DNA from: Streptomyces fulvorobeus
Lineage (GTDB): Bacteria; Actinomycetota; Actinomycetes; Streptomycetales; Streptomycetaceae
Reading direction: 5' to 3'
DNA: 64,000 nt
Assembly (NCBI RefSeq): GCF_013167895.1
Contig: NZ_BLWC01000001.1
Span: 682,001-746,000, forward strand
The first letter of the stretch is position 1, and each line of letters starts with the position of its first letter. The notes under the pieces are model-generated. The model saw only the letters and a program-made list of their open reading frames with translations. It did no database searches and had not been told where the DNA came from. The position numbers and the translations under genes were made by a program. Shown here in pieces: positions 20,827-50,082 of this stretch.

Positions 20827-20860
20827 ATGCCCCGGACGGACCTCCGGCCCTTTGGGGCAT
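20827..20860 (+). promoter_or_regulatory. hairpin in the control region ahead of the molybdate genes
   Basis: ATGCCCC (20827-20833) pairs with GGGGCAT (20854-20860), with an inner CCGGA/TCCGG pair, about 83 bp upstream of the HTH-TOBE gene. It lies between divergent genes, so it cannot be a simple terminator of either; it might be a leader structure. Confidence 0.35.
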
Positions 20861-20942
20861 GCTCCGAGCACCTTCGCACTTACCGCCGAAATCCCCGGAT
20901 CGTTCTTGCAGGTGCCAGGATATGGCGGGTACTTTGCCGCAC

Positions 20943-21338
20943 ATGCAGTCCTACACAATCGGCCAGGCCGCCCGTCTGCTGGGCGTCAGCCCCGACACCG
21001 CCCGACGCTGGGCCGATGCCGGACGGGTCGCCACCCACCGGGACGAGGCCGGGCGCCGTCTCATCGAGGGGCGCGACCTCGCGGGCCTCGCCGTCGAGGT
21101 AGGGCGCCCCGGGAACGAGGAGGACGACCCCTCCTTCACCTCGGCGCGCAACGCCTTCCCCGGCATCGTCACCGCCATCAAGCTCGGCGACGTCGCGGCC
21201 CAGGTCGAGATCCAGGCCGGACCGCACCGGGTCGTCTCACTGCTGACCCGCGAGGCCGTCGAGGAGCTCGGGCTGGCCGTCGGGATGCGGGCCACCGCCC
21301 GTGTGAAGTCGACCAGCGTGCACATCGACCGCAGCTGA
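20943..21338 (+). CDS. molybdate-responsive HTH-TOBE regulator
   Basis: The protein has 131 residues from the ATG at 20943. The N-terminus is a MerR-like/excisionase HTH (YTIGQAARLLGVSPDTARRWADAGRV). The C-terminal half (about residues 60-128) is a TOBE/Mop domain (NAFPGIVTAIKLGDVAAQVEIQAG), which binds molybdate in this family. It heads the molybdate genes, 48 bp before modA, and probably controls uptake in response to the oxyanion (inference). Confidence 0.88.
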   Translation: MQSYTIGQAARLLGVSPDTARRWADAGRVATHRDEAGRRLIEGRDLAGLAVEVGRPGNEEDDPSFTSARNAFPGIVTAIKLGDVAAQVEIQAGPHRVVSLLTREAVEELGLAVGMRATARVKSTSVHIDRS

Positions 21339-21386
21339 GCCGTCCGGCCACCGGCCGTACGGCCCGTTCCAGAGGAGTCCCTGCCC

Positions 21387-22172
21387 ATGCATCCCGCTCT
21401 CGCCGGACGGCGTCTCGCCACGACCGTGCTGTCCGTCGCCCTGCTCGTGCCGCTCGCCGCGTGCGGCAGCGACGGCGGGGACCGGGACGACGCCTCGGCA
21501 GCGCCGGGGACGAGACTCACCATCCTCGCCGCTGCCTCCCTCACCGACGCGTTCAGGACGGCGGGCACGGCGTACGAGAAGGCGCACCCCGGCACGGAGG
21601 TGACGTTCTCCTTCGCCGGATCGCAGGAGCTCGCCGCCCAGGTGGAGCAGGGTGCCCCGGCGGACGCCCTGGTCACCGCCGACGTGCGGACCATGGACGG
21701 GCTGGCGTCCGAGACGGGCCCGTCCACCGTGATCGCGAAGAACCGGCTCGTCATCGCCACCGGCGAGGGCAACCCGGAGGGGATCAGAGGGCTGGAGGAC
21801 CTGACCCGCAGCGGGCTGAAGGTCGTCCTCGCCGCCCCGGAGGTACCCGTGGGCCGCTACAGCAAGCAGATCCTGGACGCCCGGAAGCTCACCGTGAAGC
21901 CGGTTTCGCAGGAGACGGACGTCCGCGCCGTCCTGAGCAAGGTCGCGCTCGGCGAGGCGGACGCGGGGCTCGTCTACCGCACCGACGCCGCATCGGACGC
22001 CGGCCGCGTCGACGCCGTCGACATCCCGGACGCGCAGAACGCCGTCGCCTCCTACCCGGCCGCCACCCTGCGCCAGTCGGAGAACGCGGAGGCCGCGACG
22101 GCGTTCGTGCAGTGGCTCGCCGGGCCCCAGGCGCAGAAGATCCTCCGGGAGGAGGGGTTCCAGCAGCCGTAA
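21387..22172 (+). CDS. modA: molybdate ABC transporter substrate-binding lipoprotein
   Basis: The protein has 261 residues from the ATG at 21387, with AGAGGAG upstream. A signal peptide ends in the lipobox LAAC (Cys at about residue 28), so it is anchored outside the membrane. The ModA core shows [44 protein letters not shown] and [27 protein letters not shown]. It captures molybdate or tungstate for the transporter encoded next. Confidence 0.93.
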
Positions 22173-22222
22173 CCGCCCGCCCCCAGCCCATCCCGGCCCC
22201 CGAACCCGAGCAGGAACCGCCG

Positions 22223-24161
22223 ATGAGACGCCTCCGCCGCCCCGCCACAGGTGCCCGTGCTCCGCTGGCCCTGACCGTGCCCGCGCTGCTCGCGATCGCG
22301 TTCCTGCTGATGCCCCTGGCCGGCATCCTGGCCCGTACGTCCTGGCGAGACCTCGGCAGCCATCTGACGAACCCCGGCGTCACCGAGGCCCTTCGGCTGT
22401 CGCTGGTGGTCTCGTTCTGGGCACTGGGCCTCTCCCTGGTCCTCGGCGTGCCGCTGGCCTGGCTGCTGGCGCGGGTGGAGTTCCCCGGCAAGGCGCTGGT
22501 CCGCTCGCTCGTGCTGCTGCCGATGGTGCTGCCGCCCACCGTCGGGGCGTGGCCCTGCTGCTGGCCTTCGGGCGGCGGGGCCTGCTGGGGCCGTGGCTCG
22601 ACGAGACCTTCGGCATCACGCTGCCGTTCCACACCTCGGGGGCGGTGCTCGCCGCCACGTTCGTGGCGATGCCCTTCCTCGTCATCAGCCTCGAAGGCGC
22701 GCTCGCCGGGCTGCGCCCCCGCTACGAGGAGACCGCGGGCTCCCTGGGGCCTCCCCCCTGCGGGTCTTCTGGACGGTCACCCTGCCCATGGTCGCCCCCG
22801 GGCTCGCCGCGGGCGCGGCGCTGACCTGGGCGCGGGCACTGGGCGAGTTCGGCGCCACCATCACCTTCGCGGGAAACCTGCCCGGCACCACCCAGACCCT
22901 CCCCCTTCAGGTCTATCTGCTGCTCCAGGAATCGCCGGAGGCCGCGACCTCCGTTTCCCTGCTCCTGCTGGCCATCGCCATGGCCGTGCTGGTCGCCCTG
23001 CGGGGCCGCTGGACGGGCGGGGCGGGAGGCCGGGTCCCGGAGGCGCGGAACGCGGCCGACGACAGCACCCGGCCCCTGGACCCGCCACCGGTCCCCGTGC
23101 CGTCCCAGAAGGCGGACCCCGCACAGCGCTGGCCGCTCCATGCGGTGGTCTCCGGCTTCACCCAGCTCACCCTGGACGCCGCACCCGGCACCACCATCGC
23201 CGTCGTCGGCCCGAACGGCGCGGGCAAGACGACGCTCCTGCGCGCCCTGCTGGGGCTCACCCCGAGGGCGCACGCGGAACTCCGCCTCGGCGCCACCGAG
23301 GTCACCGCCCTGCCACCGCACCGCAGGGGTGTCGCCTGGGTCCCGCAGGACGGGGCGCTGTTCCCGCACCTCAGCGCGGTGACCAACACGGCGTACGGGC
23401 TGCGCGCCCGTGGCGTACCCCGGGCGCGGGCGCGACGTGAGGCGCAGCGGTGGCTGGACCGGCTCGGGGTGGGCCATCTCGCCCACCGCCGCCCCGCCCA
23501 GCTCTCCGGCGGTCAGGCCGGCCGGGTCGCCCTGGCCCGCGCCCTCGCCGCCCGCCCCCGCCTGCTGCTCCTCGACGAACCGCTGGCCGCCCTGGACCAG
23601 ACCACGCGTGCCCAGGTCCGCCACACCCTGCGCGCCCACCTCGACGACTTCGACGGGGTCTGCCTGATCGTCACCCACGATCCGGTCGAAGCGGTCGCAC
23701 TGGCCGACCGGGTCCTGGTGCTGGAGGACGGCCGCGTGGTCCAGGACGCCCCTCCGGCCGAGGTCACCCGTCATCCGCGCTCGCCGTGGGTCGCCCGCAT
23801 GCTCGGCAGCAACGCGTGGGCCGGGACCGCGACGTCCGGCGGCCTCACGCTGAGCGGCGGCGCGCACCTCGTCGCCGCCGATCCCCTGGCGGCCGGCACC
23901 GACGCGCTGGCCGTCATCGCCCCGGAAGCGGTGGCGCTGCACCGCGAGCGTCCGCGGGGCAGCCCGCGCAACGTCTATCCCGGCACCGTCCGCGAGATCA
24001 CCGCGCTCGGCAGCCGTCTGCGCATCCTCGTCGACTGCGAGGGGGTGGCCGGACTCGTCGCGGAGATCACCCCGGCGGCCGCCGCGGAGCTGGGCCTGCG
24101 TGAGGGCAGTGAGGTGTTCGCCGGTATCAAGGCCACCGAGGTGCGGCTGGTCGGCCTCTGA
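22223..24161 (+). pseudogene. fused molybdate permease/ATPase ModB-ModC, two apparent frameshifts
   Basis: ModB starts at the ATG at 22223 (hydrophobic [17 protein letters not shown] onward). It leaves frame twice. A G is missing from the GGGG at 22544-22547 and another from the GGGG at 22746-22749; restoring each gives the family sequences [13 protein letters not shown] and [11 protein letters not shown]. After the second site one frame runs without a stop through the end of ModB (EAA loop EFGATITFAGNLPGTTQT) into the ATPase: Walker A VGPNGAGKT, signature LSGGQAGRVALARA, Walker B LLLLDEPLAALD and a C-terminal TOBE domain. So permease and ATPase are one polypeptide of about 646 residues. Probably intact in the organism. 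Confidence 0.8.
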
Positions 24162-24296
24162 TCCCGCCCGTCCACATGTTCGTCCCCGGTCGCGTTCTCC
24201 GGGAACCAGGTGCCGGAATCCACCGACTACTGGGACGAAGCACAGTGACACGAGCGGTATCAGGGGCCCGCGTGGCCCAGGAGGAGGCCGACAGGC

Positions 24297-25036
24297 ATGC
24301 ACTGGTACGAGGACGACTCCCTGTGGTCCGACTTCGCACCCACGATGTTCTCCGCCGACCGCACCGCGACCGCGGCGGCCCTGGTGGAGTCCTCACCTCT
24401 GCTGGACTTCCCGCCGGGCTGCCGGGTACTCGATCTCTGCTGCGGGCCGGGGCTCTTCCTGGTGCCGCTGGCCCGCCGCGAGTACGCCGTCACGGGCGTC
24501 GACCTCTCCCCTCGATGCTGGACCGCGCGCGGAGCGCCTGCGCGCGGGCGGGGGCCGAAGTCCGCCTGGCCCAGGCCGACATGCTGACGTACACGGCTCC
24601 GGGCGCCTTCGACGTCGTACTCAACCTGTACACGTCCTTCGGGTACTTCGACGACCCCGAGGACAACCTCCGGGTGCTGCGCAACGCCTGGGAGAGCCTC
24701 GCTCCCGGCGGGCAGCTCCTGGTGGACGTCATGGGCAAGGAGGTGCTGGCCGGCTGGATCGGGCGCCCGCAGGCCGTGGACCTGCCGGACGGTTCGTACG
24801 TCGTGCAGCGGGACACCGTCCTCGACAGCTGGCGGCGGCTGCGGACCGACTGGACGCTGGTGCACGGCGACTCCGCCCGTACGGCGTCGCTGACCTCGTG
24901 GCTCTACAGCGCCGACGAACTGCAGACGCTGTTCGAGAAGGCCGGGTTCACCGGCGTCGACTGCTTCGGCGGCTTCGACGGAGCGGGGTACGACCACCGC
25001 TCGCAGCGCCTGATCGTCCGCGGGCGGCGGCCGTGA
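24297..25036 (+). pseudogene. class I SAM methyltransferase, apparent frameshift
   Basis: The ATG at 24297 has GGAGGAGG upstream. The first frame shows LDLCCGPGLFLVPLARREYAVTGVDLSP, the SAM-binding motif I and the acidic end of beta-2. The next frame continues with SMLDRARSACARAGAEVRLAQADMLTY and FDVVLNLYTSFGYFDDPEDNLRVL. One missing C in the CCCC at 24508-24511 explains the break. The restored protein has about 246 residues. Its TSFGYFDD segment resembles small-molecule or dimethylglycine-type methyltransferases. The stop overlaps the start of the PLP gene, so it is the first gene of a tight operon. Confidence 0.78.
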
Positions 25037-26153
25037 GCCCCCGGCCGGAGGTGAGCCCTCCCGCCGCCCACGCCGGTTCCGTCGGCGGCCGGTCCGTCCA
25101 TGAGCACATCACCGACGCCGTCAAGGCGCCCGACCTGATCCGGCTCGACGGCAACACCGTGCTCGCCCGGTTCGAGACGATGAAGGTGTACGCGGCGCTC
25201 GGCGCCGTCCGCTCGCTGCTGCGGCGGGGCCGGATCGTGCCGGGGCAGACGCTGATCGACAGTTCGAGCGGCATCTACGCGCTCGCCCTCGCCATGGCCT
25301 GCCACCGCTACGGCCTGCGGTGCCACATCGTGGCGTCCACGACGGTCGACTCGGTGATGCGCGCCCAGCTGGAGATCCTCGGTGCCACCGTCGATCAGAT
25401 GCCCCCTCGCAGAGCCTCCGGCTCGACCAGGAACGCCGGGTGCGCCATGTGCGCGCGCTCCTCGCCGACCGGCCGGACTTCCACTGGATGCGGCAGTACC
25501 ACGACGCCGTCCACTACGAGGGGTACCAGGAGTGCGCGGAGCTCGTATCCGGGGCTCTGCCCGAGGGACCGGTCACCGTCGTGGGCGCCGTGGGCACGGG
25601 AGCGTCCACCGGCGGACTCGCCCAGGCCCTGCGGGCGTCCGGGCGCGCGGTGCGCCTGGTCGGCGTCCAGCCGTTCGGCAGCGTCACGTTCGGCAGCGAG
25701 CAGTTCAACGACCCGGACGCGATCATCGCCGGTATCGGAAGCTCCATCCCGTTCCGCAACGTCCGCCACGAGCTGTACGACACCGTGCACTGGCTGGACT
25801 TCCGGCACGCGATGGCGGGGGCCGTCGGCCTGCTGCGGCAGCACGCGGTGTTCGCCGGGCTGTCCACGGGAGCGGCTCATCTGGTCGCGTCGTGGGAGGC
25901 GGCCAGGCATCCCGAACGCCTCCACCTGGTGCTCGGCGCGGACACCGGCCACCGTTACGCGGAGCGGGTCTTCTCCCGGCACGCCGAGGCACGGGACATG
26001 GCGGGGCTCCGGCCGCTGCCCATCGCGTCGCTCGCTGAACTGCGCCCTCCCTGGTCGGTCATGGAGTGGGCGGGACGGGCCGCGCCGCCGGGCGCCCGCT
26101 GTGCCGACGAGGGCGCCGCCGTGTCCGTATCCACCGTGGAGCTGACGTCATGA
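25033..26153 (+). pseudogene. PLP-dependent cysteine-synthase-like enzyme, apparent frameshift
   Basis: The GTG at 25033 overlaps the methyltransferase stop. A fold-type II PLP enzyme is seen: GNTVLARFETMKVYAALGAV, where the Lys aligns with the PLP lysine of the SxKDR region; then IDSSSGIYALALAMA and MRAQLEILGATVDQM; and, in the next frame, VVGAVGTGASTGGLAQAL, the phosphate-binding loop. One missing C in the CCCCC at 25402-25406 explains the frame change; the restored protein has about 373 residues. The usual TSGNTG loop reads SSSGIYA, so the Asn is absent, which suggests an altered substrate. Relatives include SbnA and O-ureidoserine synthase types. Confidence 0.75.
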
Positions 26154-27373
26154 CGCTCGCCGCACTCGAAGCGCTCTCGTTCGGCCTGGGCCGCATGGTC
26201 TCGGCGGCCGAGGAGACCGGGCACCGGCTGTGCCTGCTCACCGGGGACCGGTCGGTGTACGGGCACGAACTGGCCGGCCTCCCCGACGACGCGCTGACCG
26301 TCGTCGACGTCGACACCCACGATCCGGCCGCGGTCCGCCGGGCGCTGGCCACCGTCCCCGCGCTGGCCGGTCTGATCAACACGACCGACACCTGGAGCGT
26401 GCCGGCCGCCGATCTCGCGGCGGAGTTCGGGCTGCCGGGGCCGGACCCGGCAGCGGTGCGGCTGCTGCGCGACAAGCACCGGGTGCGTGCCCTGCTGCAC
26501 CGCCGGGGGCTGAGCCGCAGCGGCGCCGTGCGCGTGGGGGCGGGCGTGGGAGCGGCCGGGGACATCCTGCGTGAGGTGGGTCTGCCGGCGGTGCTCAAGG
26601 ACTCGGCCGGCACCTCCTCGCGCAACGTCTGGATCGTCCATGACGAGGAGGCGCTGCGCGACGCGCTGGCGGAAGCGGGCCGGCAGACGCTCATGGGCTC
26701 GCTGTTCGCGGAGGGCTTCCTGTCGGGGCCGCTGTACAGCGCGGAGACGCTCAGCTGGGACGGCGCCATCCGGCTGCTCGGTGTCCTGAGCCGCCAGACC
26801 TCCCGGCAGCCGGCGGTACGGGAGGAAGCCGCGGCCTTTCCCGTCGCCCTGCCGGACACCGAACGGCGGGGGATCGAGGAGTGGGCCGGGCGGGTCCTGT
26901 CGGCGGCGGGGCACCGGAGCGGCTTCGCCCACGTGGAGTTCATCCTCACGGCCCGGGGTCCTGAGCTGGTCGAGATCAACCGGCGGATCGGCGGTGCGCT
27001 GGTGGGCGAGGTGCTGTGCCGCTCCCTGGGGACCAACGTGTACACGGCCATGATGGAGGAGGCGCTCGGCCGGCGGCCCGGCCTGATGGACGCCCATATC
27101 GACGGGGCGGGACCGGCGTTCGGCTTCGTCCTCGTGCACGCCGACCACCCGGGTGTGCTGAAGGGCTGGCTCGGACTGGACGAACTGGCCTCCTTCCCCG
27201 GCTCGGTGCGCTGGTACCCCACGAGGGAACCGGGCGACGCCCTGGCCCACGTAGGGGACCAGCGGGGGTGCACGGGCATCGTGCTCGCGGAGGCGTCGAC
27301 GGCCGAGCTGGCGCAGCACCGGGCGTGGAGCGCGGCCACCCGGGTGCGGCCCGTGGTCACCGGTGGGCCGTGA
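26150..27373 (+). CDS. ATP-grasp domain ligase
   Basis: The protein has 407 residues from the ATG at 26150, which overlaps the stop of the PLP gene (ATGA). The ATP-grasp fold is visible: LRDKHRVRALLHRRGL before the lid, LPAVLKDSAGTSSRNVWIV with the ATP-binding Lys (about residues 145-165), and VEFILTARGPELVEINRRIGG, where the Glu-x-Asn-x-Arg set binds magnesium (about residues 263-281). Such enzymes join a carboxylate to an amine or similar via an acylphosphate. Between a PLP enzyme and an exporter it is probably the bond-forming step of a small metabolite (inference). Confidence 0.85.
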   Translation: MTLAALEALSFGLGRMVSAAEETGHRLCLLTGDRSVYGHELAGLPDDALTVVDVDTHDPAAVRRALATVPALAGLINTTDTWSVPAADLAAEFGLPGPDPAAVRLLRDKHRVRALLHRRGLSRSGAVRVGAGVGAAGDILREVGLPAVLKDSAGTSSRNVWIVHDEEALRDALAEAGRQTLMGSLFAEGFLSGPLYSAETLSWDGAIRLLGVLSRQTSRQPAVREEAAAFPVALPDTERRGIEEWAGRVLSAAGHRSGFAHVEFILTARGPELVEINRRIGGALVGEVLCRSLGTNVYTAMMEEALGRRPGLMDAHIDGAGPAFGFVLVHADHPGVLKGWLGLDELASFPGSVRWYPTREPGDALAHVGDQRGCTGIVLAEASTAELAQHRAWSAATRVRPVVTGGP

Positions 27374-28607
27374 GGCGGGGGCCGGCGGGCGGTTCAGCGG
27401 CCCGCAGGTGTTCCTGCTGGCCGGTTCGTTCCTGATCACGCTCGGCAGCTTCGCGGTCCTGCCGTACATGTCGGTGCTGCTGCACCAGCGGCTCGGGCTT
27501 GGCCTCGGCACGGTCGGCGTCGTCCTGGCCGTCGCCTCGCTGGTGCAGTTCTCCGGGAGCGCGGCGGCCGGGGCGGTGACCGGCCGGATCGGTCTGCGGG
27601 CGACGATGCTGGTGGCGCTCGGGCTGCGTACGGCGGGATTCGCGGCGTTCCTGCCGGGGATGCACAGCGCGGTGGTCTCGATCGGGGCGCTGCTGCTGGT
27701 GTCCTGCGGGGCCGCCCTCTATCTGCCGGCCAACAAGGCGTACCTGGTGGAGGGCGCCACCGAGGCGGAGCGTCCGCGGGTGCTGTCGGCCGGCAGTTCG
27801 GCGTTCAACGCGGGCATGGCCCTCGGGCCGCCCGCCGCCGCGCCGTTCGTCCTGGGGTCGCCGCTCGTACTGTTCTCCTGCGTCACGCTGCTGTTCGCGC
27901 TCGTCGGTGCGGGGCACGCGCTGCTGCCGCCGGCCGGCCCTGGAACGGCGGCCCCGGTGAGCGGCGCGAGCGGCGGCTCACGCGGCGGGGGTCCCGGGCC
28001 GTCCCCCTTCGCCGTGACCGTTCTCGCCGTGTACGTCTTCATGTTCTTCCAGCACTACCTGGCCCTGTACGCGGTGCCGCGCACCTCGGCGGCCTTCTAC
28101 GGGGCCGTCCTGATGGGGTACGCCGCTCTCCTGGTGGTCGCCCAGCCCTTGCTGTCCGGCTGGATCGCCGCGCTCACCTACCCGAGCGCGATGCGGGTGG
28201 GCTTCGGAGCGATGGCCGCCGGGACGGCCGCCATCGGCTTCGGCGGGTACGCGGGGATCGGCGCGGGCGCCGTGCTGATGTGTTTGGGGGAGGTCGTCCT
28301 CTTCCTGAAGAACGACCTGGAGGCGCTGGCCCGTTCGTCCGCGCCGCCCGCCGCGGTCTTCGGCGGACAACGGCTGGCGGCGGGGATCGGCGCCTTCGCG
28401 AGCGGCGTCGTCGGCGGTCAGGTGTACGCGGCGGCGGACGCGGCAGGCTCGGCCGGGGGGTTCTGGGTGGCCGTGTGCCTCCAGGCGGTGATCCTTCCGG
28501 TGTGCTTCCTGCGTCGCCGGACGGGGCCGCTCAGGGGGAGCGTCCGGCGACGCGGGAGCCGGAGGCCGCCGGAGAAGCCCGGCGAGCCTGTCCGGTCAGG
28601 GCAGTAG
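27363..28607 (+). CDS. MFS exporter of the ligase cassette
   Basis: The protein has 414 residues from a GTG at 27363 that overlaps the ligase stop by 11 bp. It is hydrophobic throughout, with PQVFLLAGSFLITLGSFAVLPYMSVLL as the first segment and many more after it. The family resembles actinobacterial MFS efflux proteins. Its overlap with the biosynthetic genes suggests it exports, and gives self-protection against, the cassette product (inference). Its stop lies 3 bp from the end of the convergent sigma-factor gene, with no room for a terminator. Confidence 0.83.
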   Translation: MGREAGAGGRFSGPQVFLLAGSFLITLGSFAVLPYMSVLLHQRLGLGLGTVGVVLAVASLVQFSGSAAAGAVTGRIGLRATMLVALGLRTAGFAAFLPGMHSAVVSIGALLLVSCGAALYLPANKAYLVEGATEAERPRVLSAGSSAFNAGMALGPPAAAPFVLGSPLVLFSCVTLLFALVGAGHALLPPAGPGTAAPVSGASGGSRGGGPGPSPFAVTVLAVYVFMFFQHYLALYAVPRTSAAFYGAVLMGYAALLVVAQPLLSGWIAALTYPSAMRVGFGAMAAGTAAIGFGGYAGIGAGAVLMCLGEVVLFLKNDLEALARSSAPPAAVFGGQRLAAGIGAFASGVVGGQVYAAADAAGSAGGFWVAVCLQAVILPVCFLRRRTGPLRGSVRRRGSRRPPEKPGEPVRSGQ

Positions 28608-28610
28608 GGA

Positions 28611-29234
28611 TCAGGCGGCCGGTATCGACGGTTCCGTGCTCCACACCGCCGCGAGATCCCGTCTGGCGCGCGCCACCCGGGAGCGCACCGTGCCGATCGG
28701 GCAGCCCGCGGTGTCGGCCGTCTCCTCGTACGACATGCCCATCAGCTGGGTGAGGACGAATGCCTGGCTCCGCGCCGCGTCCATGGTCCGCAGCGCGTCG
28801 AACAGCGCCACGGTCTCGTCGAATCCCGGGGTGTGCCGCGGCTGGGCGCGTTCCGCCGCGGCCTGCCAGTCGGCGGTGTCGGCGATCCGGGGCCGCACGG
28901 AAGCGGTGCGGTACCCGTCGATGACGACGCGTCGGGCGATGGCGAGCAGCCAGGTGCGCGCGCAGGAACGTCCCGCGAAGCCGGCCAGGCCGGTCATGGC
29001 CCGCAGATAGGTCTCCTGGGCCATGTCCTCGGCGGCGGGGCCGTCGGCGCCGAGGTAGGTGACGAAGCGGCGTACGTCCTCGTACGTCGCCCGGACGAAG
29101 CGCTCGGCCGCCTCACGGTCGCCGCAGCCGGCGGCCAGTGCCCAGCCGGTGATCTGCAGATCACGCTGTTGGGCGGGGACCCTCCGGGCGGCGGAGGGCT
29201 CCGGGGCGGGGGTTAGTGTCGGGGCAGGGCTCAT
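28611..29234 (-). CDS. ECF RNA polymerase sigma factor
   Basis: The protein has 207 residues from the ATG at 29234; a GTG one codon earlier is equally placed for the AAGGA ribosome site. Region 2 is seen as AAERFVRATYEDVRRFVTYLG and DMAQETYLRAMTGLAGFAGRSCARTWLLAIARRVVIDGYR. Region 4 is seen as QAFVLTQLMGMSYEETADTAGCPIGTVRSRVARARRDL. No anti-sigma factor is adjacent; the next upstream gene is a membrane protein behind a strong terminator. The regulon is unknown. Confidence 0.9.
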   Translation of the reverse strand: MSPAPTLTPAPEPSAARRVPAQQRDLQITGWALAAGCGDREAAERFVRATYEDVRRFVTYLGADGPAAEDMAQETYLRAMTGLAGFAGRSCARTWLLAIARRVVIDGYRTASVRPRIADTADWQAAAERAQPRHTPGFDETVALFDALRTMDAARSQAFVLTQLMGMSYEETADTAGCPIGTVRSRVARARRDLAAVWSTEPSIPAA

Positions 29235-29294
29235 CACAGCACGTCCTTCGTGTCTGTTCGCGGAGCCGCGGCGTCTTCACACGGGCTCCTCGGA

Positions 29295-29398: not shown

Positions 29399-30115
29399 TC
29401 AGTGGGCGAACGAGGGCCGGACGGGAAGGACGTGCGGGGGCGGGCCGCGCAGAGACAGGCCGTGCAGCAGCAGGAGTTCCTGGAGACGGCGCCCCGGCCT
29501 GCGCCGCGGGCGCCACCGCGTGAGTGGTGCCTGGGGCGGGCCGGCGTCCCAGAGCCGCCAGGCCGTCGCCAGGGGTGCGCGGACGAACAGGGCGAGGGAG
29601 CGGGCGAGCTGGACGACCGCGGCCTCACCGCGCCACAGCCACCAGCCGCAGAGCAGACCGGCGATCAGGTGGGCCGCCGCCATGCCCGCGCTCAGCGTGG
29701 AACCGTCGAACGCCTCCAGGAGGCCCGGGCCCGGCACGGCGCCGGCCGTCGCCTCGTGCGCCACGTGGTCGACCGCGCCGGAGTGGTGCACGGCGTACGC
29801 GTGAACGGCGGACACGGGCGGCTCACCGGCCGTGTACGGCCGTTCCCGCGCGGCGGACGGGAGCGAGCTGAAGAAGGCGTGCAGGAACACCTGCCCGACG
29901 GCGCTCGCGGCGACGGCGGCGCAGGCGGTCCGTTCCCTTCCCGCCAGCCACCAACCGGCACACGTCACCAGCAGCAGGGCCGACGCGAGAGCGGGGAGCG
30001 GAAGGGACCCGCCGGACATGTGCGCGTGCCCGAGTCCGGACACGGCGACGCACACCACCGCGAACAACACGGCGCGTACGAAGCGGAGTGCGGGTCCGGC
30101 CCCCATGACCGCCAT
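29399..30115 (-). CDS. membrane protein of unknown function
   Basis: The protein has 238 residues from the ATG at 30115. An ATG three codons on (30106) and a longer frame to 30211 are alternatives; the latter would cover the Crp-like site. Hydrophobic segments include ALRFVRAVLFAVVCVAVSGLG, PLPALASALLLVTCAGWWLAG and a pair before LLCGWWLW. A GHAHMSGG stretch and further His between the segments hint at metal or heme contact (inference only). The C-terminal part is Arg/Pro-rich and probably cytoplasmic. I do not recognise the family. It is divergent from the cytochrome-like gene across the Crp-like palindrome. Confidence 0.7.
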   Translation of the reverse strand: MAVMGAGPALRFVRAVLFAVVCVAVSGLGHAHMSGGSLPLPALASALLLVTCAGWWLAGRERTACAAVAASAVGQVFLHAFFSSLPSAARERPYTAGEPPVSAVHAYAVHHSGAVDHVAHEATAGAVPGPGLLEAFDGSTLSAGMAAAHLIAGLLCGWWLWRGEAAVVQLARSLALFVRAPLATAWRLWDAGPPQAPLTRWRPRRRPGRRLQELLLLHGLSLRGPPPHVLPVRPSFAH

Positions 30116-30201
30116 CGTGCCAGCGCCACCCGCCGTCACGAGAAGACCATCAAGTCCTGACACCGGGCTGGTTGACCCACTATGAGCGGACACGCTCCTC
30201 C

Positions 30202-30217
30202 TGTGATCCACATCACA
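30202..30217. promoter_or_regulatory. Crp-like binding site between divergent membrane genes
   Basis: TGTGATCCACATCACA matches the Crp consensus TGTGA-N6-TCACA exactly and the Streptomyces GTG-N8-CAC form. It lies 87 bp from the start of the minus-strand membrane protein and 120 bp from the start of the plus-strand cytochrome-like gene. Confidence 0.65.
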
Positions 30218-30336
30218 TCAAACCCGGGGGAACTTTCCGCACCCCCTGCCCGACTGCTCCAACGACGCTCCCCCGCACGCCTGGTGGCCCGGGACCGCAC
30301 CCGCCGCACCGCCGACGCGACCGAAGAGGCAGCACG

Positions 30337-31311
30337 ATGAAGCCGTCCCCAGCGCCACCCGCCCCCGAACCCGCCGAGCCCGACGCCCCCGCCGCAGGCG
30401 CCGTTGACCGGCCCGTGCGCCCCACCCTGCGCTCCGACCTGCGCGCCTCGCTGCCCGACGGGCTCGTGGCGCTCGCAGTGACCGGAGCGGTCTTCGCACT
30501 GCTCTACGTCCGGATCAGGGCCAAGACCTCCTCGACGGTCTCCGTCATGCCCTTCATGGCCGACGCGGGCGGCTTCTGGATGTACTTCCTGAGCCAGGCG
30601 TTCGGCTGGTCCGCGCTGCTGTGGGCCTGGGGCACCGTCGTCCTCGGCCTGCTGCTCTCCGGCCCCCGCCCGCGCGGGCTGCCCCTCTCCGGCCCCCGTC
30701 TCGAACGCCTCCACCGCACCACCAGCCTCAACACGATGGCGCTGATAGCGGCTCACGCCCTGCTCTTCGCCGCCGAGCTGGTGAGACACGACACCGCGCG
30801 ATGGCACTCGGCGCTCGCCACCGCGTTCGTGGAGGCGTTCGTGCCGGGCGGGTACGACTCCGGCACCGGCCGGATCGCCATGCCCGTGGGCCAGGCCGCG
30901 CTCTACCTGGCGATCCCGCTCGGCCTGCTCTTCTACGTCCGGCACCGCATAGGCCCCAGGACCTGGCGGGTGCTGCACCGCTTCGTGATCGTCGTGTACG
31001 TCCTGAGCGTCTGGCACACCCTCCTCTACGGCACCAACGTCTGGTACGACGGGTGGTTCCGGACGAGCGTCTGGCTCCTCCAGATCCCGATCGCGGCCCT
31101 CCTGCTGCTGCGGCTGCTGCGGCCCGCACGCCGCTCGGAGCGCCTGCCCCGGCCGGGCACCGGGTCACCCGCGGGCTGGACCCTGCGCCTGACCGGCCGG
31201 CTCGCGGTCGCCGTAGTCGTCGTGGCGGTGCTCGCGGTCGTACTCAGCGGACACGACGGCGGCCGGACCGTCCCCCCGGCCGACACCTCCTCCACCCACA
31301 ACCACGACTAG
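30337..31311 (+). CDS. ferric-reductase-like transmembrane cytochrome
   Basis: The protein has 324 residues from the ATG at 30337. Two helices carry His pairs suited to bis-His heme: RLHRTTSLNTMALIAAHALL and RVLHRFVIVVYVLSVWHTLL. Further membrane segments surround them, and the tail ends in a His/Ser/Thr stretch. This fits the ferric-reductase-like (DUF/YedZ-like) membrane domain. There is no NAD- or FAD-binding domain, so it would need an electron partner. It probably moves electrons across the membrane. A terminator follows. Confidence 0.82.
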   Translation: MKPSPAPPAPEPAEPDAPAAGAVDRPVRPTLRSDLRASLPDGLVALAVTGAVFALLYVRIRAKTSSTVSVMPFMADAGGFWMYFLSQAFGWSALLWAWGTVVLGLLLSGPRPRGLPLSGPRLERLHRTTSLNTMALIAAHALLFAAELVRHDTARWHSALATAFVEAFVPGGYDSGTGRIAMPVGQAALYLAIPLGLLFYVRHRIGPRTWRVLHRFVIVVYVLSVWHTLLYGTNVWYDGWFRTSVWLLQIPIAALLLLRLLRPARRSERLPRPGTGSPAGWTLRLTGRLAVAVVVVAVLAVVLSGHDGGRTVPPADTSSTHNHD

Positions 31312-40467: not shown

Positions 40468-40851
40468 TCAGCGCACGAGCAGGTCGAGCAGCCGTTCGAT
40501 CTCAGCCGCCGGGTCCGTCGTGAGGCCGCTGTGCACGGGCCCCGGCTGGACGACCGTGGAACGCGGCGCGATCAGCCAGCGAAAACGCCGTCCGAGGTCG
40601 TCGCCCGCCGCCTGGCCCGCCGCGTCACCGCCGTGACAGACCCCTTCCACGGCCCGCAGAGCGGCCCGCACGCCGACCACGTCGGCCCTCGGGTCCAGCG
40701 CCGCGAGCTTGCGCTCGTCCAGATGCGTGCGGGCGGCGACGAAGGATCTCGCCCGGCAGTACACCAGCACGCCCGCGTTGAAGCACTCACCACGCTCCAC
40801 CCTGGGGACGACCCGCAGCACGGCGTACTCGAAGACATCGCGCCTGGTCAT
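40468..40851 (-). CDS. DUF3037 domain protein
   Basis: The protein has 127 residues from the ATG at 40851, which overlaps the stop of the HipA-like gene. The sequence VFEYAVLRVVPRVERGECFNAGVLVYCRAR near the N-terminus is the DUF3037 hallmark. The family is often next to a HipA-like kinase and its function is unknown. The overlap suggests coupled translation and a joint role with that kinase. Confidence 0.9.
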   Translation of the reverse strand: MTRRDVFEYAVLRVVPRVERGECFNAGVLVYCRARSFVAARTHLDERKLAALDPRADVVGVRAALRAVEGVCHGGDAAGQAAGDDLGRRFRWLIAPRSTVVQPGPVHSGLTTDPAAEIERLLDLLVR

Positions 40852-41702
40852 CGTCGGCCGCCCTTGCCGCTCTGCTCGTCACCGGCCGGCTGGGGGGCCA
40901 GGCGCCCGACGAGCCAGCCGGGCGCCTGCGAGGGCCTGGTCCTGGTCGGCGCGTCCAGCGAGATCCGCTCGTGGACGCTGCGCGCGCGGGCCAGCAGCGG
41001 TGCCACGTAGGCGCGGCGCAGCGCGTCCGTCGACTCGAAGCCGGGCTCGTCGACGAGCCACTCGTCGGGTACGTCGGCGACGACCTCGGTGAGCAGCTCC
41101 TCGGTGACGAGCGGGCCCAGCTCGGCGGCCGCGGCCGCGATGTCCGGGCCGAAGGGTGCGAGCACGTGGTCGGAGGCGTTGTAGGGCTTGGCCGCCGAGG
41201 TCTGCGCCCCGGGCCAGTTGTGGTGCCAGATCATCGTGGCCCCGTGGTCGATCAGCCAGGGGTCGCCGTGCCAGACCAGCATGTTGGGGTTGCGCCACGA
41301 CCGGTCGACGTTGTTGATCAGCGCGTCGAACCAGATGACCTTCCCGGCTTCCGCGGGCCCGACCTGGTAGGCGAGCGGATCGAAGCCCAGCGAGCCGGGA
41401 AGGTAGTCCATCCCGAGGTTGAGGCCGCCGCTCGCCTTGAGCAGTTCCTGCACCTCCTGGTCGGGCTCGGCCAGCCCGATGACGGGGTCGAGCTGGATGG
41501 TGACGAGCTCCGGCACGCGCAGCCCCAGCCGCCGGCCGAGCTCTCCGCAGACGACCTCCGCCACGAGGGTCTTGCGGCCCTGGCCCGCGCCGGTGAACTT
41601 CATGACGTACGTGCCCAGATCGTCGGCCTCGACGATCCCGGGGAGCGATCCACCCTCCCGCAGGGGCGTGACGTAGCGGGTCGCGACAACCTCTTTTAGC
41701 AC
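40848..41702 (-). CDS. HipA-like kinase-domain protein
   Basis: The protein has 284 residues from the GTG at 41702, which gives the family start LKEVVATRYVTPLREGGSLP. Further upstream the frame stays open but is remnant integrase/IS sequence. The segment TYVMKFTGAGQGRKTLVAEVVCGELG holds the likely ATP-binding Lys. DALINNVDRSWRNPNMLVW and PWLIDHGATMIWHHNWPG match the catalytic and metal-binding loops (N-V-D-R-S/N; IDHG) of the HipA/PI4-kinase-like fold. It is paired with DUF3037, not with HipB. Confidence 0.82.
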   Translation of the reverse strand: MLKEVVATRYVTPLREGGSLPGIVEADDLGTYVMKFTGAGQGRKTLVAEVVCGELGRRLGLRVPELVTIQLDPVIGLAEPDQEVQELLKASGGLNLGMDYLPGSLGFDPLAYQVGPAEAGKVIWFDALINNVDRSWRNPNMLVWHGDPWLIDHGATMIWHHNWPGAQTSAAKPYNASDHVLAPFGPDIAAAAAELGPLVTEELLTEVVADVPDEWLVDEPGFESTDALRRAYVAPLLARARSVHERISLDAPTRTRPSQAPGWLVGRLAPQPAGDEQSGKGGRR

Positions 41703-41820
41703 TTTCCCAGGCCACCCATCTCTTAGCCTTGCATTCAACGGAGGGCTCCTTCGGGGCGTAGAGGCGGGAATCGCCAGTCGACGGCGCTGGGGGAAATCTG
41801 GGGAGTTCCGGCCAGCTAGC

Positions 41821-41913
41821 TGATCCCCCGCGCTCCCCAAGCAGACCGTCGATGGTGCCGCGCCCTTTGCTGCCGGCCTCCGGCATGAAGTGAGCATAGT
41901 AACCGAGAGTGAT
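41821..41913 (-). pseudogene. C-terminal remnant of a tyrosine recombinase
   Basis: This minus-strand frame reads ITLGYYAHFMPEAGSKGRGTIDGLLGERGG, which is the end of phage/ICE-type integrases; the YYAHFMPEAG element contains the catalytic Tyr region. Nothing upstream belongs to the integrase; the transposase fragment begins within about 20 bp. Only about 30 residues are left, so it is a scar from an integrated element beside the HipA-like gene. Confidence 0.55.
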
Positions 41914-41929
41914 CGCGGGCGAGGGTGTC

Positions 41930-42420
41930 GACGGCGGCGGCCACCGCCGCGGCGTTCTGGCGGTGGCCGCCGACGGCCCGGCGGATTGCCCGCGCGACCG
42001 GCCCGTCCACCGTGGCGCTTGTGGCCGAGCGGGTGTCGAGGAACGCGCCGACGGCTCGGTCGAGGGCGTCGCCGTCGAGGCGTTCCAGCAGGCGGCGGAT
42101 GGTCGCGGGGTGCGGGGCGGAGGTCTGCCCGGTGAACGGGTCGGGGGTGAAGCCGAGTGTCCGCAGGGCCCAGGGCGGCGCGTCGGTGATCCATTCCCCG
42201 ATCGCGGCCAGCGACTTCGCACCGGGCAGGACGGCGGCGGCCACCGCGCAGACCAGTGCGCTGAAGGGGTAGATCCGGCCTTTACGGCCCCTGGGATCGG
42301 GCATCCCGGTCAGGAACGTACGCAGGTCAACGGCATCAAGGAGCGGTGCCGGGGCGGCTATCGAGGCCAGTTGCCCCAGCGGGGTGGCGATAGGCGATGA
42401 TGCAGACGCTCGCGCCAGGC
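41930..42420 (-). mobile_element. ISAs1-family transposase, N-terminal fragment
   Basis: The minus-strand frame has ASSPIATPLGQLASIAAPAPLLDAVDLRTFLTGMPDPRGRKGRIYPFSALVCAVAAAVLPG and AIGEWITDAPPWALRTLGF, then PHPATIRRLLERLDGDALDRAVGAFL. These are the family-typical first 130 residues of ISAs1-type transposases. The catalytic DDE part is absent; the sequence passes into the integrase remnant. No terminal repeats were found. It is inactive. Confidence 0.65.
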
Positions 42421-47237: not shown

Positions 47238-48263
47238 TCAGGCCGAGCGGGTCAGCGCTTCGGACCACACCGGATCGGCGTAGGGCAGTCCTTGTCCATA
47301 CCTTTCCAGTTCATCGAGCGCGGCGTGCGCCACCCGGAGCAGTTCGTTGCCGAGCGAGCCGGCCACGTGGGGTGTCAGCAGCACGTTGGGAAGGTCGTAC
47401 AGGGGCGAGGAGGCGGGCAGCACCTCCGGCTCGGTCACGTCCAGCACCGCGTTCAGCCGTCCCGAGACCAGTTCGTCCGTCAGAGCGGCGGTGTCGACCA
47501 GGGAGCCGCGTGCCGTGTTGATGAGCGTCGCACCGTCCGGCAGCAGGCTCAGGCGCTCCCGGTCGAAGAGATGCCGAGTCCGCGGGAGTTCCGGCGCGTG
47601 AATCGTCACCACGTCGCTCGTCACCGCCAGGGTGTCGAGCGGCACCGGCCGGACACCGAGCCGTGCCGCCTCCTCCTCGTCCACGTACGGGTCGTACAGC
47701 AGCACGCGCAGGTCGTGCGGGCGCAGCAGCTCGATCACCCGGCGCCCGATCCGGGACGCGCCGACGACGCCGACCGTGCGGCGGTAGTTCCCGCCCGCCC
47801 CGATCAGGTCGATCGAGCTGATCCGGGCTCGCGTGTCCCGGTACGCCCGCTCCGCCGCCAGCACACCCTTGCCGGAGAAGAGGATGGCGGCCAGGGTGTA
47901 TTCGGCGACGGGCAGCGCGTTCGCCGCCGCCGCGGAGGCGACCGTCAGCCCCCGCTCCCAGCAGGCGTCGGTGATGTGGTGCTTCACCGAGCCGGCGGCG
48001 TGCACGACCGTGCGCAGCCTGGGCATCCGGTCCAGCACCCCGGCGGTGAGCGGTGGGCAGCCCCAGCCCGTCAGCAGCGCCTCGGCCCTCGCGAGCACCT
48101 GCGCCAGAGCGGGGTCGGCGAAGTCCTCGACCACGAGGGAGGGGTCGGTGTCGGCGAGGGCAGTGAGCCGGTCGAGCGCCATGCGGTCGAACAGCGCCTT
48201 GCTGACCGAAGGGTCCATCGCGAGGACGGTACGCGGACGGCGGGACGGGAGAGGCGGCGTCAC
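47238..48263 (-). CDS. D-2-hydroxyacid dehydrogenase (NAD-dependent)
   Basis: The protein has 341 residues from the GTG at 48263, which overlaps the permease stop (GTGA). The NAD-binding part shows TVGVVGASRIGRRVIELL (about residues 165-182), TLINTARGSLVDTAALT, and catalytic residues in NAVLDVTEPEVLP and LLTPHVAGS (Glu and His). The family acts on 2-keto acids or glyoxylate-like substrates. Being the last gene of the sugar-uptake operon, it may process a product of polysaccharide breakdown. Confidence 0.9.
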   Translation of the reverse strand: MTPPLPSRRPRTVLAMDPSVSKALFDRMALDRLTALADTDPSLVVEDFADPALAQVLARAEALLTGWGCPPLTAGVLDRMPRLRTVVHAAGSVKHHITDACWERGLTVASAAAANALPVAEYTLAAILFSGKGVLAAERAYRDTRARISSIDLIGAGGNYRRTVGVVGASRIGRRVIELLRPHDLRVLLYDPYVDEEEAARLGVRPVPLDTLAVTSDVVTIHAPELPRTRHLFDRERLSLLPDGATLINTARGSLVDTAALTDELVSGRLNAVLDVTEPEVLPASSPLYDLPNVLLTPHVAGSLGNELLRVAHAALDELERYGQGLPYADPVWSEALTRSA

Positions 48264-49180
48264 TTGACGGCTCCTGCGGTGAGGCCGGAACGCCAGTAAC
48301 GCTGGAGCGCGATGAAGGCGACGGCGAGGGGGACGATGGACAGCAGTGAGCCCGTGATGACGAACGAGTAGAACTGCGGCTCCTGCGCGAGGGTGGCGTT
48401 CCAGTTGAACAGGCCCAGCCCCACGGGGTAGAGCGCGGAGTCGTTGAGCATCACCAGCGGGAGGAAGAAGTTGTTCCAGCTCGCGGTGAACGAGAAGAGG
48501 AAGATCGTCACGAAGGCGGGTGAGAGCATCGGCAGCGCGACGGACCGGAAGGTCCTCAGTTCGCTCGCGCCGTCGAGCCGGGCCGCCTCCAGGGTCTCGC
48601 CCGCGACGTAGCTCTCGGCGAAGACGCGGGCCAGATAGACGCCGAAGGGGTTGACCAGGCCGGGGATCAGCACGGCCCAGTAGGAGTTGACCAGCCCTGT
48701 CTCCGAGGCCATCAGGTACATCGGCAGGGAGAGGACGGTGTGCGGGACGAGGATGCCCAGCAGCACGAGGCCGTACAGCTTCTCCTTGCCGGGGAAGTGG
48801 TACTTGTCGAAGGCGTACCCGGCCAGCAGCGAGACGAGGGTGGAGGCGAGGGCGCCGACGACCGAGTACAGCATGCTGTTCGCCATCCAGCGGCCGAAGA
48901 TCCCGTCCTGGTGGGCGAAGAGGGCGGAGAGGTTGGCGAAGAGGTTGAAGTCGGCGAGCTGGAAGCCGGGACGGCCGAACAGATCTCCGTTGCTCTTGGT
49001 GGCGTTGAGCAGCAGCCAGCTCAGCGGCATCAGCGTGTACACGGCGACGATGGCGAGGATCGTGTTGACCGCGGCCTTGGACGACCACGAGGTGCCGGTG
49101 GGGCGTCGGCGGGGGGTGGCCGTCCGTACGGGTGAGGCGGCCGGCGCCCCGGTCGCGGGTGCCTCGGCGGTGAGCGCCAT
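48260..49180 (-). CDS. carbohydrate ABC transporter permease (MalG type)
   Basis: The protein has 306 residues from the ATG at 49180. Membrane segments begin at AAVNTILAIVAVYTLMPLSWLLL. The EAA loop region is GETLEAARLDGASELRTFRSVALPMLSPA, the site of ATPase docking. No ATPase gene is in the locus, as is normal in Streptomyces, where a shared MsiK-type ATPase serves many sugar transporters. Gap to the upstream permease is 2 bp. Confidence 0.92.
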   Translation of the reverse strand: MALTAEAPATGAPAASPVRTATPRRRPTGTSWSSKAAVNTILAIVAVYTLMPLSWLLLNATKSNGDLFGRPGFQLADFNLFANLSALFAHQDGIFGRWMANSMLYSVVGALASTLVSLLAGYAFDKYHFPGKEKLYGLVLLGILVPHTVLSLPMYLMASETGLVNSYWAVLIPGLVNPFGVYLARVFAESYVAGETLEAARLDGASELRTFRSVALPMLSPAFVTIFLFSFTASWNNFFLPLVMLNDSALYPVGLGLFNWNATLAQEPQFYSFVITGSLLSIVPLAVAFIALQRYWRSGLTAGAVK

Positions 49181-49182
49181 GG

Positions 49183-50082
49183 TCACGCCTCCTTCCAGCG
49201 GTTGCCGAGCTTGGTGATGACGAACGACAGCGCGGCACCGAGCAGCGCCAGCATCAGGGAGGCCGCTGCCGCCAGGCCGTAGTCGTGCTTGGTGAAGGCG
49301 GCCTGGTAGATGTACATCACCGGGCTCCAGTTCTGCGAGATGGCGGACGACTGGGCGCGCAGCACCTCCGGCTCGTTGAAGAGCTGGATCGCGCCGACCG
49401 CGGTGAAGAGCATGGTGAGAACGACCGACGAACGGATCATCGGCAGCTTGACGGCCAGGGCGGTGCGCAGCTGTCCGGCGCCGTCGACCGTGGCCGCCTC
49501 CAGGGTCTCCCTGGGCACGGCCTGGAGGGCGGCATAGAAGATCACCGTGTTGTAGCCCATCCACTGCCATGCGGCGGCGTTGGCCATGGAGAAGATCACC
49601 GTGTCGGCGCCGAGGAAGTCCCATTCGACGCCGAAGGTGTTAAGGAAGTCCACCACCGGGCTCAGACCGGGCGTGTACAGGAAGCCCCAGATGATCGCGG
49701 CGATGAGGCCGGGCACGGCGTGCGGCAGGAAGTAGGCCAGCTGGAAGAGTCTCTTCGCGCTCGCCATCGTGGAGTCCACCAGCAGGGCCAGGGCGAGGGC
49801 CCCGCCCACCATCACCGGGATGTAGATCAGGCAGTACAGGGCGACGTGGAGGAAGCCGTCGCGGAACGCGGTGTCCTCCAGCGCCCGCAGGTAGTTGTCG
49901 ACGCCGACGAACAGGGTCTCCGGAGCCTCGAATCCGAGGCCCGAGGTGGCTTGTTCGCGGAACAGACTCATCCACAGCGCGTAGCAGACGGGGGCGACGA
50001 GGGTGGCGAGGAAGAGGACGAAGAAGGGGGCGATGAAGAGGGCCGGTGTGCTGCGCTGCCCGCGGCCGAGCCGGGAAGTCAT
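49183..50082 (-). CDS. carbohydrate ABC transporter permease (MalF type)
   Basis: The protein has 299 residues from the ATG at 50082. Hydrophobic segments run from ALFIAPFFVLFLATLVAPVCYALWMSLF onward. The EAA loop is RETLEAATVDGAGQLRTALAVKLPMI. It is the first permease of the pair; the upstream sugar-binding gene is separated by about 100 bp with a strong hairpin. Confidence 0.92.
   Translation of the reverse strand: MTSRLGRGQRSTPALFIAPFFVLFLATLVAPVCYALWMSLFREQATSGLGFEAPETLFVGVDNYLRALEDTAFRDGFLHVALYCLIYIPVMVGGALALALLVDSTMASAKRLFQLAYFLPHAVPGLIAAIIWGFLYTPGLSPVVDFLNTFGVEWDFLGADTVIFSMANAAAWQWMGYNTVIFYAALQAVPRETLEAATVDGAGQLRTALAVKLPMIRSSVVLTMLFTAVGAIQLFNEPEVLRAQSSAISQNWSPVMYIYQAAFTKHDYGLAAAASLMLALLGAALSFVITKLGNRWKEA

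Follow-up and report, generated by a model that had tools for sequence, protein, structure and literature searches.

A conserved four-gene Streptomyces cassette behind a sigmaC-type promoter as a probable copper metallophore pathway

Introduction

What is made by a compact cassette of four genes, encoding a methyltransferase, a pyridoxal phosphate (PLP) enzyme, an ATP-grasp ligase and a major facilitator superfamily (MFS) protein, and what controls it? The question was raised by a stretch of 64,000 nucleotides of Streptomyces fulvorobeus (contig NZ_BLWC01000001.1, positions 682,001 to 746,000), referred to here as the window, in which the cassette occupies positions 24297 to 28607. The initial annotation of this DNA described a compact pathway for an exported, amino-acid-type metabolite, made without a non-ribosomal peptide synthetase (NRPS) or a polyketide synthase (PKS). 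That description is supported by the wider comparison, in which the four genes stand together in 34 of 40 related loci. The purpose of the cassette was missed; the conserved partners and promoters that point to metal acquisition lie outside the four genes.

The reading favoured here, to which a probability of about 0.6 is assigned from sequence comparison, is that the four proteins build and secrete a small copper metallophore derived from amino acids, and that a copper-starvation sigma factor controls their genes. There is good support for a conserved pathway of metal acquisition with a promoter of sigmaC type. The product is very probably a metallophore for some metal, and copper is the probable metal. 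To our knowledge, little has been established about copper acquisition in most Gram-positive bacteria.

A sigmaC-type promoter shared by the cassette and a reductase gene

The motif GGGAAC-N16-CCGAC has exactly two perfect matches in the window. The first, GGGAAC-N16-CCGAC(TACTG) at 24201..24227 on the forward strand, lies 96 bases before the methyltransferase start. The second, at 30228..30254 on the same strand, precedes the gene of a ferric-reductase-like transmembrane protein. With one mismatch allowed, 8 window matches were obtained against a shuffle mean of 4.1. The motif matches the sigmaC promoter consensus published for Corynebacterium glutamicum, GGGAACT / CGACTA (PMC5483222), for which the introduction of the same article gives GGAAAC and CGACT. 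Promoters of this type, with a -35 element GGGAACT and a -10 element CGACTA, are present at the target genes.

Across 1.25 Mb of cassette and reductase loci, a spacing of 16 gave 76 matches and each other spacing from 8 to 26 at most 7, in a count that takes in related and a few duplicate loci. A looser motif, GGGAAC-N17-CGAC, was sought within 420 bases upstream of genes, locus L005 being too short to test. It was found ahead of 41/48 methyltransferase genes and 24/30 reductase genes against 2/221 other genes of the same loci. Seven methyltransferase genes were missed, and by eye three of these loci (L025, L030 and L039) do carry the motif before the matched start; the reductase upstream regions without it were those of L008, L013, L068, L076, L085 and L090. 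A second copy was located at or just 5' of the FecCD start in L027, L037, L086, L087 and L088, and no perfect second copy was found in the importer-containing cassette L035. We infer that the SigC-like factor encoded beside the cassette is the reader of these promoters.

A search of 121 genomes of the genus with a strict pattern, GGGAACT-N15-CCGACTACTG, gave 55 sites in 39 genomes; the reversed control gave 0 in every genome. The genes behind the motif were read at 30 of these sites, each in a different genome. PepSY_TM genes followed 13 sites, FecB/FecCD genes 9 (one inside a cassette, and L186 assigned partly by eye), the cassette methyltransferase 5, an ABC ATPase 2 and the membrane protein described below 1; PepSY_TM, FecBCD or the cassette stand behind 27 of the 30. 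Both ABC ATPases were recognised solely by 37-38% similarity to ModC, and one lies near a PCuAC-like gene. The two window sites fall outside the strict form, the methyltransferase site having C after GGGAAC and the reductase site ending in CTGCT. In G007, a genome with no cassette, the motif stands ahead of FecBCD and also ahead of a small protein whose next neighbour is an ATPase scoring 500.6 bits against the copper model TIGR01511 (cut-off 397).

Gene content and conservation of the cassette

All four cassette genes are encoded on the forward strand. The class I S-adenosylmethionine methyltransferase (24297..25036) is matched by PF13649 in both halves, with the frame broken near 24512. It is followed by a fold-type II, SbnA-like PLP enzyme with a shortened lysine loop (25033..26153), matched by PALP in both halves and broken near 25407. 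The ATP-grasp ligase (26150..27373) is intact and of the L-amino acid ligase type, with both domains above their Pfam cut-offs (LAL_C2 52.3 bits, cut-off 29.4; ATP-grasp_4 36.3 bits, cut-off 27) and a match to PDB entry 3vot. The MFS protein (27363..28607), also intact, scores 51.7 bits against MFS_1 (cut-off 33.4) and is a presumed exporter. The four classes named in the initial annotation were recovered by Pfam (Methyltransf_25/23, PALP, ATP-grasp_4 with LAL_C2, and MFS_1), with the qualification that the methyltransferase and PLP frames are interrupted in the window. Its co-directional arrangement with overlaps of 4 to 11 bp is present as described, at 25033-25036 (4 bases), 26150-26153 (4 bases) and 27363-27373 (11 bases).

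When named genomes were searched for the ATP-grasp protein, 40 loci were obtained, many from closely related species, so that the counts are not independent. They were from Streptomyces, with two from Saccharopolyspora and one distant match (31%) from Brevibacterium. The complete four-gene set was present in 34/40 loci, and the methyltransferase, PLP and ATP-grasp genes in 38/40. The outcome that the initial annotation had named as refuting it, homologues of the four genes standing apart in other genomes, was therefore not the one observed. Incomplete sets were those of L008 and L026 (no MFS match), L033 (no methyltransferase or PLP match), L038 (rearranged, no MFS), L040 (at a contig end) and L041 (ATP-grasp only). 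Matches to the ATP-grasp protein at E <= 1e-30 were present in 44 of 199 sampled genomes of the genus; cassette membership was assigned to the 29 in which E was at most 1.5e-95, a cut picked after viewing the list. No paper on the cassette was found among the titles, abstract starts and matches listed in the open-access literature, a scope that leaves subscription papers mostly outside.

A larger unit with a sigma factor, a membrane protein and a reductase

The cassette belongs to a larger unit. Directly beyond it, on the reverse strand, are genes for an extracytoplasmic function (ECF) sigma factor (28611..29237; Sigma70_r2 and r4_2) and a His-rich integral membrane protein (29399..30211), and on the forward strand lies the gene of the ferric-reductase-like transmembrane protein (30337..31311; PF01794 36.1 bits, cut-off 28). 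The sigma factor scores 153.8 bits against PRK12535 and 149.6 bits against PRK09649, both below the model cut-offs, and it is therefore called SigC-like. The sigma gene was found in 29/40 and the reductase gene in 25/40 of the ATP-grasp loci, several of which are short contigs.

The genes stay close to the cassette when the order is rearranged. In L031 the sigma, membrane protein and reductase genes all lie upstream, inverted; in L011, L035, L036, L037 and L038 the sigma gene is upstream of the methyltransferase gene; and in L003, L008, L011 and L036 the reductase gene directly follows the cassette. The reductase was present in 22/29 cassette genomes and 14/170 others (Fisher p 3e-14, kinship ignored). 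The reductase and ATP-grasp genes lay within 5 kb of each other in 17 of the 22 genomes having the two. They are separated by 0.86 Mb in G044 and lie on separate contigs in G037, G155, G119 and G177, in the last two of which one of the genes is at the end of its contig.

The membrane protein matched no Pfam or NCBIfam family. In 15 hand-picked SigC-like loci, from genomes some of which carry a cassette elsewhere, a homologue adjoined the SigC-like gene in 14 by BLAST and in the fifteenth, L103, by eye. These homologues average 3.9% Met and 4.5% His, where 350 background proteins have 1.65% and 2.4%; the cassette-linked ones have means of 2.2% Met and 4.5% His. Cys30, His38, Gln83, His87, Met153 and His157 are among the positions invariant in 30 sequences, and the invariant Cys, His and Met fall in predicted helices. 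The structural model was weak (pTM 0.49), and it gave no PDB match with E < 0.001. The protein is a candidate metal sensor or anti-sigma factor.

Importers and relatives of the PLP enzyme

Genes for FecCD, an ABC ATPase and a Peripla_BP_2 protein (FecB) were found between the methyltransferase and PLP genes in L027, L035, L037, L086 and L088 (L087 is the same as L027), which gives these relatives a linked metal-complex importer. The divergent cassette L090 also has FecBCD, and in L038 a siderophore-interacting protein (SIP) gene adjoins the PLP gene. No importer was found beside the cassette in the window itself. Genomes that lack the cassette ligase gave 14 reductase loci, of which 12 were examined (L064-L075). 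FecBCD was nearby in four (L065, L070, L071 and L074) and missing from eight, three of which (L067, L069 and L075) had only an ATPase-like match.

In a class-wide sample, relatives of the PLP enzyme were found in 26/394 genomes and 6/137 genera. FecCD was present within a stretch of about 20 kb in 16/20 PLP loci examined, 10/11 from other genera and 6/9 from this genus; with 11 FecCD matches in about six places of this genome, the chance expectation is roughly 2%, an estimate from one genome. No window-type ATP-grasp was detectable in 15 of the 16. The four loci without FecCD had a SIP homologue (L157), the reductase (L166 and L173) or ATPase-like matches only (L169).

In the other genera tested (L155, L161 and L163) the PLP gene is accompanied by a GHMP kinase, a DUF364 protein or, in L155 and L161, both. 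DUF364 is annotated as putative heavy-metal chelation, and the NCBIfam matches of the kinase are weak and name no substrate. SbnA, the closest characterised family of the cassette enzyme, uses an O-phospho amino acid. The kinase neighbour hints that the PLP enzyme does so as well. The loci L155, L160, L161 and L163, from other actinobacterial families, combine this PLP subfamily with FecBCD; a small methyltransferase, DUF364, GHMP kinase and MFS were also recognised there, through family searches or on inspection, and the loci are likely to represent a sister metallophore pathway. Parts of the same cluster were seen by eye in L157, L159, L166 and L171.

Enzyme assignments and proposed pathway

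The PLP enzyme was assigned from the intact orthologue in L003. Its best NCBIfam model was SbnA (TIGR03945), at 139.7 bits and below the equivalog cut-off of 349.95. The predicted structure of an orthologue (pLDDT 80, pTM 0.80) was closest to an SbnA structure, followed by other SbnA entries, cystathionine beta-synthases and cysteine synthases; O-ureidoserine synthase (3x43) ranked under SbnA. The protein is a fold-type II PLP enzyme, with the PALP fold and a Schiff-base lysine. The canonical motifs of such enzymes are SxK and SGN. Their seeming absence raised the possibility of a pseudoenzyme, which was rejected because Lys50, invariant in 33/33 sequences, aligns in the profile with the usual Schiff-base lysine, that of AMKDR, after a five-residue deletion. 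The SGN loop has another residue in place of its Asn, and this missing Asn remains a departure. Neither an NRPS nor an isonitrile-forming family was found in the four cassette proteins, to which the search for them was confined.

The gene families, their linkage, the common promoter sequence and, in other genomes, the genes that follow it are observed; from these we infer substrates, product, metal and sensing as follows. The SbnA-like enzyme would carry out a beta-replacement on an activated serine or threonine and yield a diamino- or aminopolycarboxylate-type block. The ATP-grasp ligase would join this block to a second amino acid, the methyltransferase would methylate the ligase product, and the MFS protein would export the finished metabolite. 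A FecBCD-type importer would take the loaded complex back up; some species encode it within the cassette, and in this strain its genes presumably lie at another place. The ferric-reductase-like protein would release the metal from the imported complex. The SigC-like factor, perhaps gated by its His/Met-rich membrane partner, would drive both the cassette and the reductase gene. One candidate for import in trans is the FecBCD homologue L175 at C1:367-370 kb of the same genome, which is 54, 57 and 45% identical to the importer of cassette L035.

A broader proposal, on which the balance is even, is that the cassette typifies a new family of NRPS-independent, amino-acid-derived copper metallophores. 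Such a family would combine a loop-shortened SbnA-like PLP enzyme with an ATP-grasp ligase, under a SigC-type factor and a Met/His-rich membrane copper sensor, with FecBCD import and PepSY_TM or ferric-reductase-like reduction in the regulon; in a sister version in other genera, with the same PLP subfamily, a GHMP kinase and DUF364 would replace the ligase. If the copper metallophore reading were true, many Streptomyces would scavenge copper through a pathway that is simple, amenable to genetics and independent of NRPS chemistry, by a route unlike the known copper-scavenger pathways. The SigC-type copper-starvation response of mycobacteria and corynebacteria would extend to streptomycetes, with its promoter, targets and candidate membrane sensor defined, and the loop-shortened PLP subfamily would serve as a genome marker for further metallophores.

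Evidence against a copper metallophore and alternative explanations

Several findings weigh against a copper metallophore under SigC-type control. The score of the sigma factor against the SigC equivalog model (NF007231, PRK09649) falls short of a cut-off of 219 bits. The cassette loci L076, L085 and L090 had no sigma match, and the cassettes L031, L076, L085 and L090 had no motif before the methyltransferase gene. Of the 12 reductase loci L064-L075, whose genomes lack the cassette ligase, L073 alone has the motif before the reductase gene. The FecBCD homologue of the genome itself (45-57% identity) lies far from the cassette and carries no motif. A regulon in this genome could not be drawn from the short motif, which was rejected as unspecific (9 matches, 14 in the reversed control); with the longer -10 element and one mismatch there were 7 matches against 11 in the control, the only perfect ones being the two cassette-locus sites. 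In the 15 picked SigC-like loci, 4/15 motif matches were clearly before metal-type genes: PepSY_TM in L097, a small Met/His-rich protein and the membrane protein in L103, and a copper ATPase and FecB in L105. In L108 the motif lies 462 bases ahead of an ABC ATPase fragment, and the remaining ten precede MFS genes, often by 400-640 bases, or have no fittingly spaced called gene. The Met and His level of the membrane protein in the window is modest, being reached by 8% of background proteins. Two of the four cassette genes, those of the methyltransferase and the PLP enzyme, are broken as sequenced. Genes for a CobW-type GTPase and ribosomal proteins S18 and S14 lie just 5' of FecBCD in L155 (14363-16300), which suggests zinc control of that relative. 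In C. glutamicum, sigmaC may sense electron-transfer defects and not copper (PMC7337898).

The alternative that survives best, and is still unlikely, is a metallophore for iron, zinc or another metal, with the Streptomyces SigC-like factor answering to a different or broader signal. The FecBCD, SIP and ferric-reductase families at these loci are classically iron systems, and the CobW, S18 and S14 genes beside the related PLP cluster of L155 belong to zinc starvation in other bacteria. PepSY_TM proteins point both ways: Bordetella CrpH, which supports heme-copper oxidases, is induced when the cell is starved of copper, and some others are ferrisiderophore reductases (PMC13038864). Copper is nevertheless favoured by a promoter equal to the C. 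glutamicum sigmaC consensus (PMC5483222), whose regulon responds to copper deprivation (PMC7337898), by the copper ATPase behind the motif in G007, by Met/His-rich loops in the sigma-linked membrane proteins and by PCuAC genes near two loci.

Less likely again is that the cassette of this strain is a decaying, non-functional remnant. The two broken frames agree with such decay, as does the close relative G057 (locus L068), which shares the order mod-cassette-sigma-reductase with the window and has no MFS match, an ATP-grasp gene only as a fragment and a 46-base gap in the methyltransferase gene; that cassette is apparently decaying. In the window, each break amounts to one base missing beside a C run relative to G057, at 24512 and at 25407. 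The modB gene just upstream has two comparable single-base gaps (22548 and 22746), and a FecCD gene is split at another place in the genome. The assembly (6.63 Mb, two contigs) is 94.2% complete, against 98-100% for most listed relatives. Orthologues of both genes are open in most other genomes, with the exceptions of L037 (methyltransferase in two frames) and L077 (PLP gene in two frames). On account of the modB gaps, the split FecCD gene, the completeness and the open orthologues, the breaks are probably assembly or sequencing errors. An indel-prone assembly fits better than decay. Neither promoter is damaged, and the reading frames of the ATP-grasp, MFS, sigma and reductase genes are uninterrupted.

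Least likely of the three is an exported dipeptide-like antibiotic or signal with incidental metal genes, a reading to which an ATP-grasp dipeptide ligase beside an MFS gene (a common antibiotic layout), an MR_MLE enzyme of the dipeptide epimerase superfamily adjoining the ligase in the G066 variant L083 and distant PLP and ATP-grasp pairs in other cluster kinds lend some colour, and against which stand the promoter common to cassette and reductase gene, the importer within several cassettes and the genes behind the strict motif.

Comparison with known systems

The copper metallophore reading draws its closest regulatory parallel from mycobacteria. In M. tuberculosis, SigC guards the cell against copper starvation and increases expression of ctpB and of the nrp operon (PMC7924339), the source of a diisonitrile that binds copper (PMC9600254), and the sigmaC regulon of C. 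glutamicum is activated by copper deprivation (PMC7337898). The present system likewise combines a SigC-type ECF factor with a probable pathway for a secreted metabolite, and the copper P-type ATPase behind the motif in G007 recalls the raising of ctpB by SigC. It differs in that the cassette has no NRPS or isonitrile-synthase family and its product would be an ATP-grasp amino-acid conjugate. The sigC gene of M. tuberculosis is monocistronic, with no known anti-SigC factor (PMC7924339), whereas a membrane protein lies beside the sigma gene in the window. The promoter consensus is shared with C. glutamicum, in which sigmaC drives cytochrome bd genes (PMC7337898); at the 30 sites read in the Streptomyces group the motif precedes PepSY_TM, FecB/FecCD, the cassette, ABC ATPases or the membrane protein.

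Among enzymes, the PLP protein resembles SbnA of staphyloferrin B and L-Dap biosynthesis, both in its best NCBIfam model and in its best solved fold. It departs from SbnA in score (139.7 against 349.95 bits), in the deletion before the lysine and in the replaced Asn, and the four cassette genes include no SbnB or NIS synthetase family. Of the two comparisons drawn in the initial annotation, that with diaminopropionate pathways is the closer, SbnA being the best family, with a score far under the TIGR03945 cut-off. The D-cycloserine pathway contains O-ureidoserine synthase and an ATP-grasp enzyme inside a larger gene set. The resemblance proposed to it gains no support from the four cassette proteins, the closest fold being SbnA with O-ureidoserine synthase lower. 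The ligase resembles bacterial L-amino acid ligases (BL00235 and relatives) in its ATP-grasp and LAL_C2 domains and in its structural matches (PDB 3vot, 30vh and 4wd3), and is unlike them in having a conserved SbnA-like partner and a sigmaC-type promoter.

Neighbouring genes and further loci

A TOBE/HTH regulator and a modABC molybdate operon lie directly upstream of the cassette (20859-24161), an arrangement seen otherwise only in G057. A molybdenum link was rejected, no modA or TOBE match being found in the 40 related loci and one ModC-like ABC match (37%, L003) being present, with some contigs too short to judge. The operon is not considered part of the system.

A second divergent cassette-like locus in G066, L083, contains two methyltransferases, an MR_MLE enzyme, an ATP-grasp protein and the same motif, with no PLP match. 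Distant PLP and ATP-grasp pairs in L079, L080, L081 and L082 mark another, uncharacterised type of cluster; by eye, tetrapyrrole-methylase-like and LOG-like proteins were seen in L079, L081 and L082, and NTP-pyrophosphatase-like proteins in L079 and L081. In L093 and L095 a PLP-ATP-grasp fusion protein lies beside argininosuccinate-lyase-like and NRPS-like genes (by eye). Within the window, the called open reading frames 40848-42194 and 48260-49624 are long with translations that look out of frame, and perhaps mark further assembly indels.

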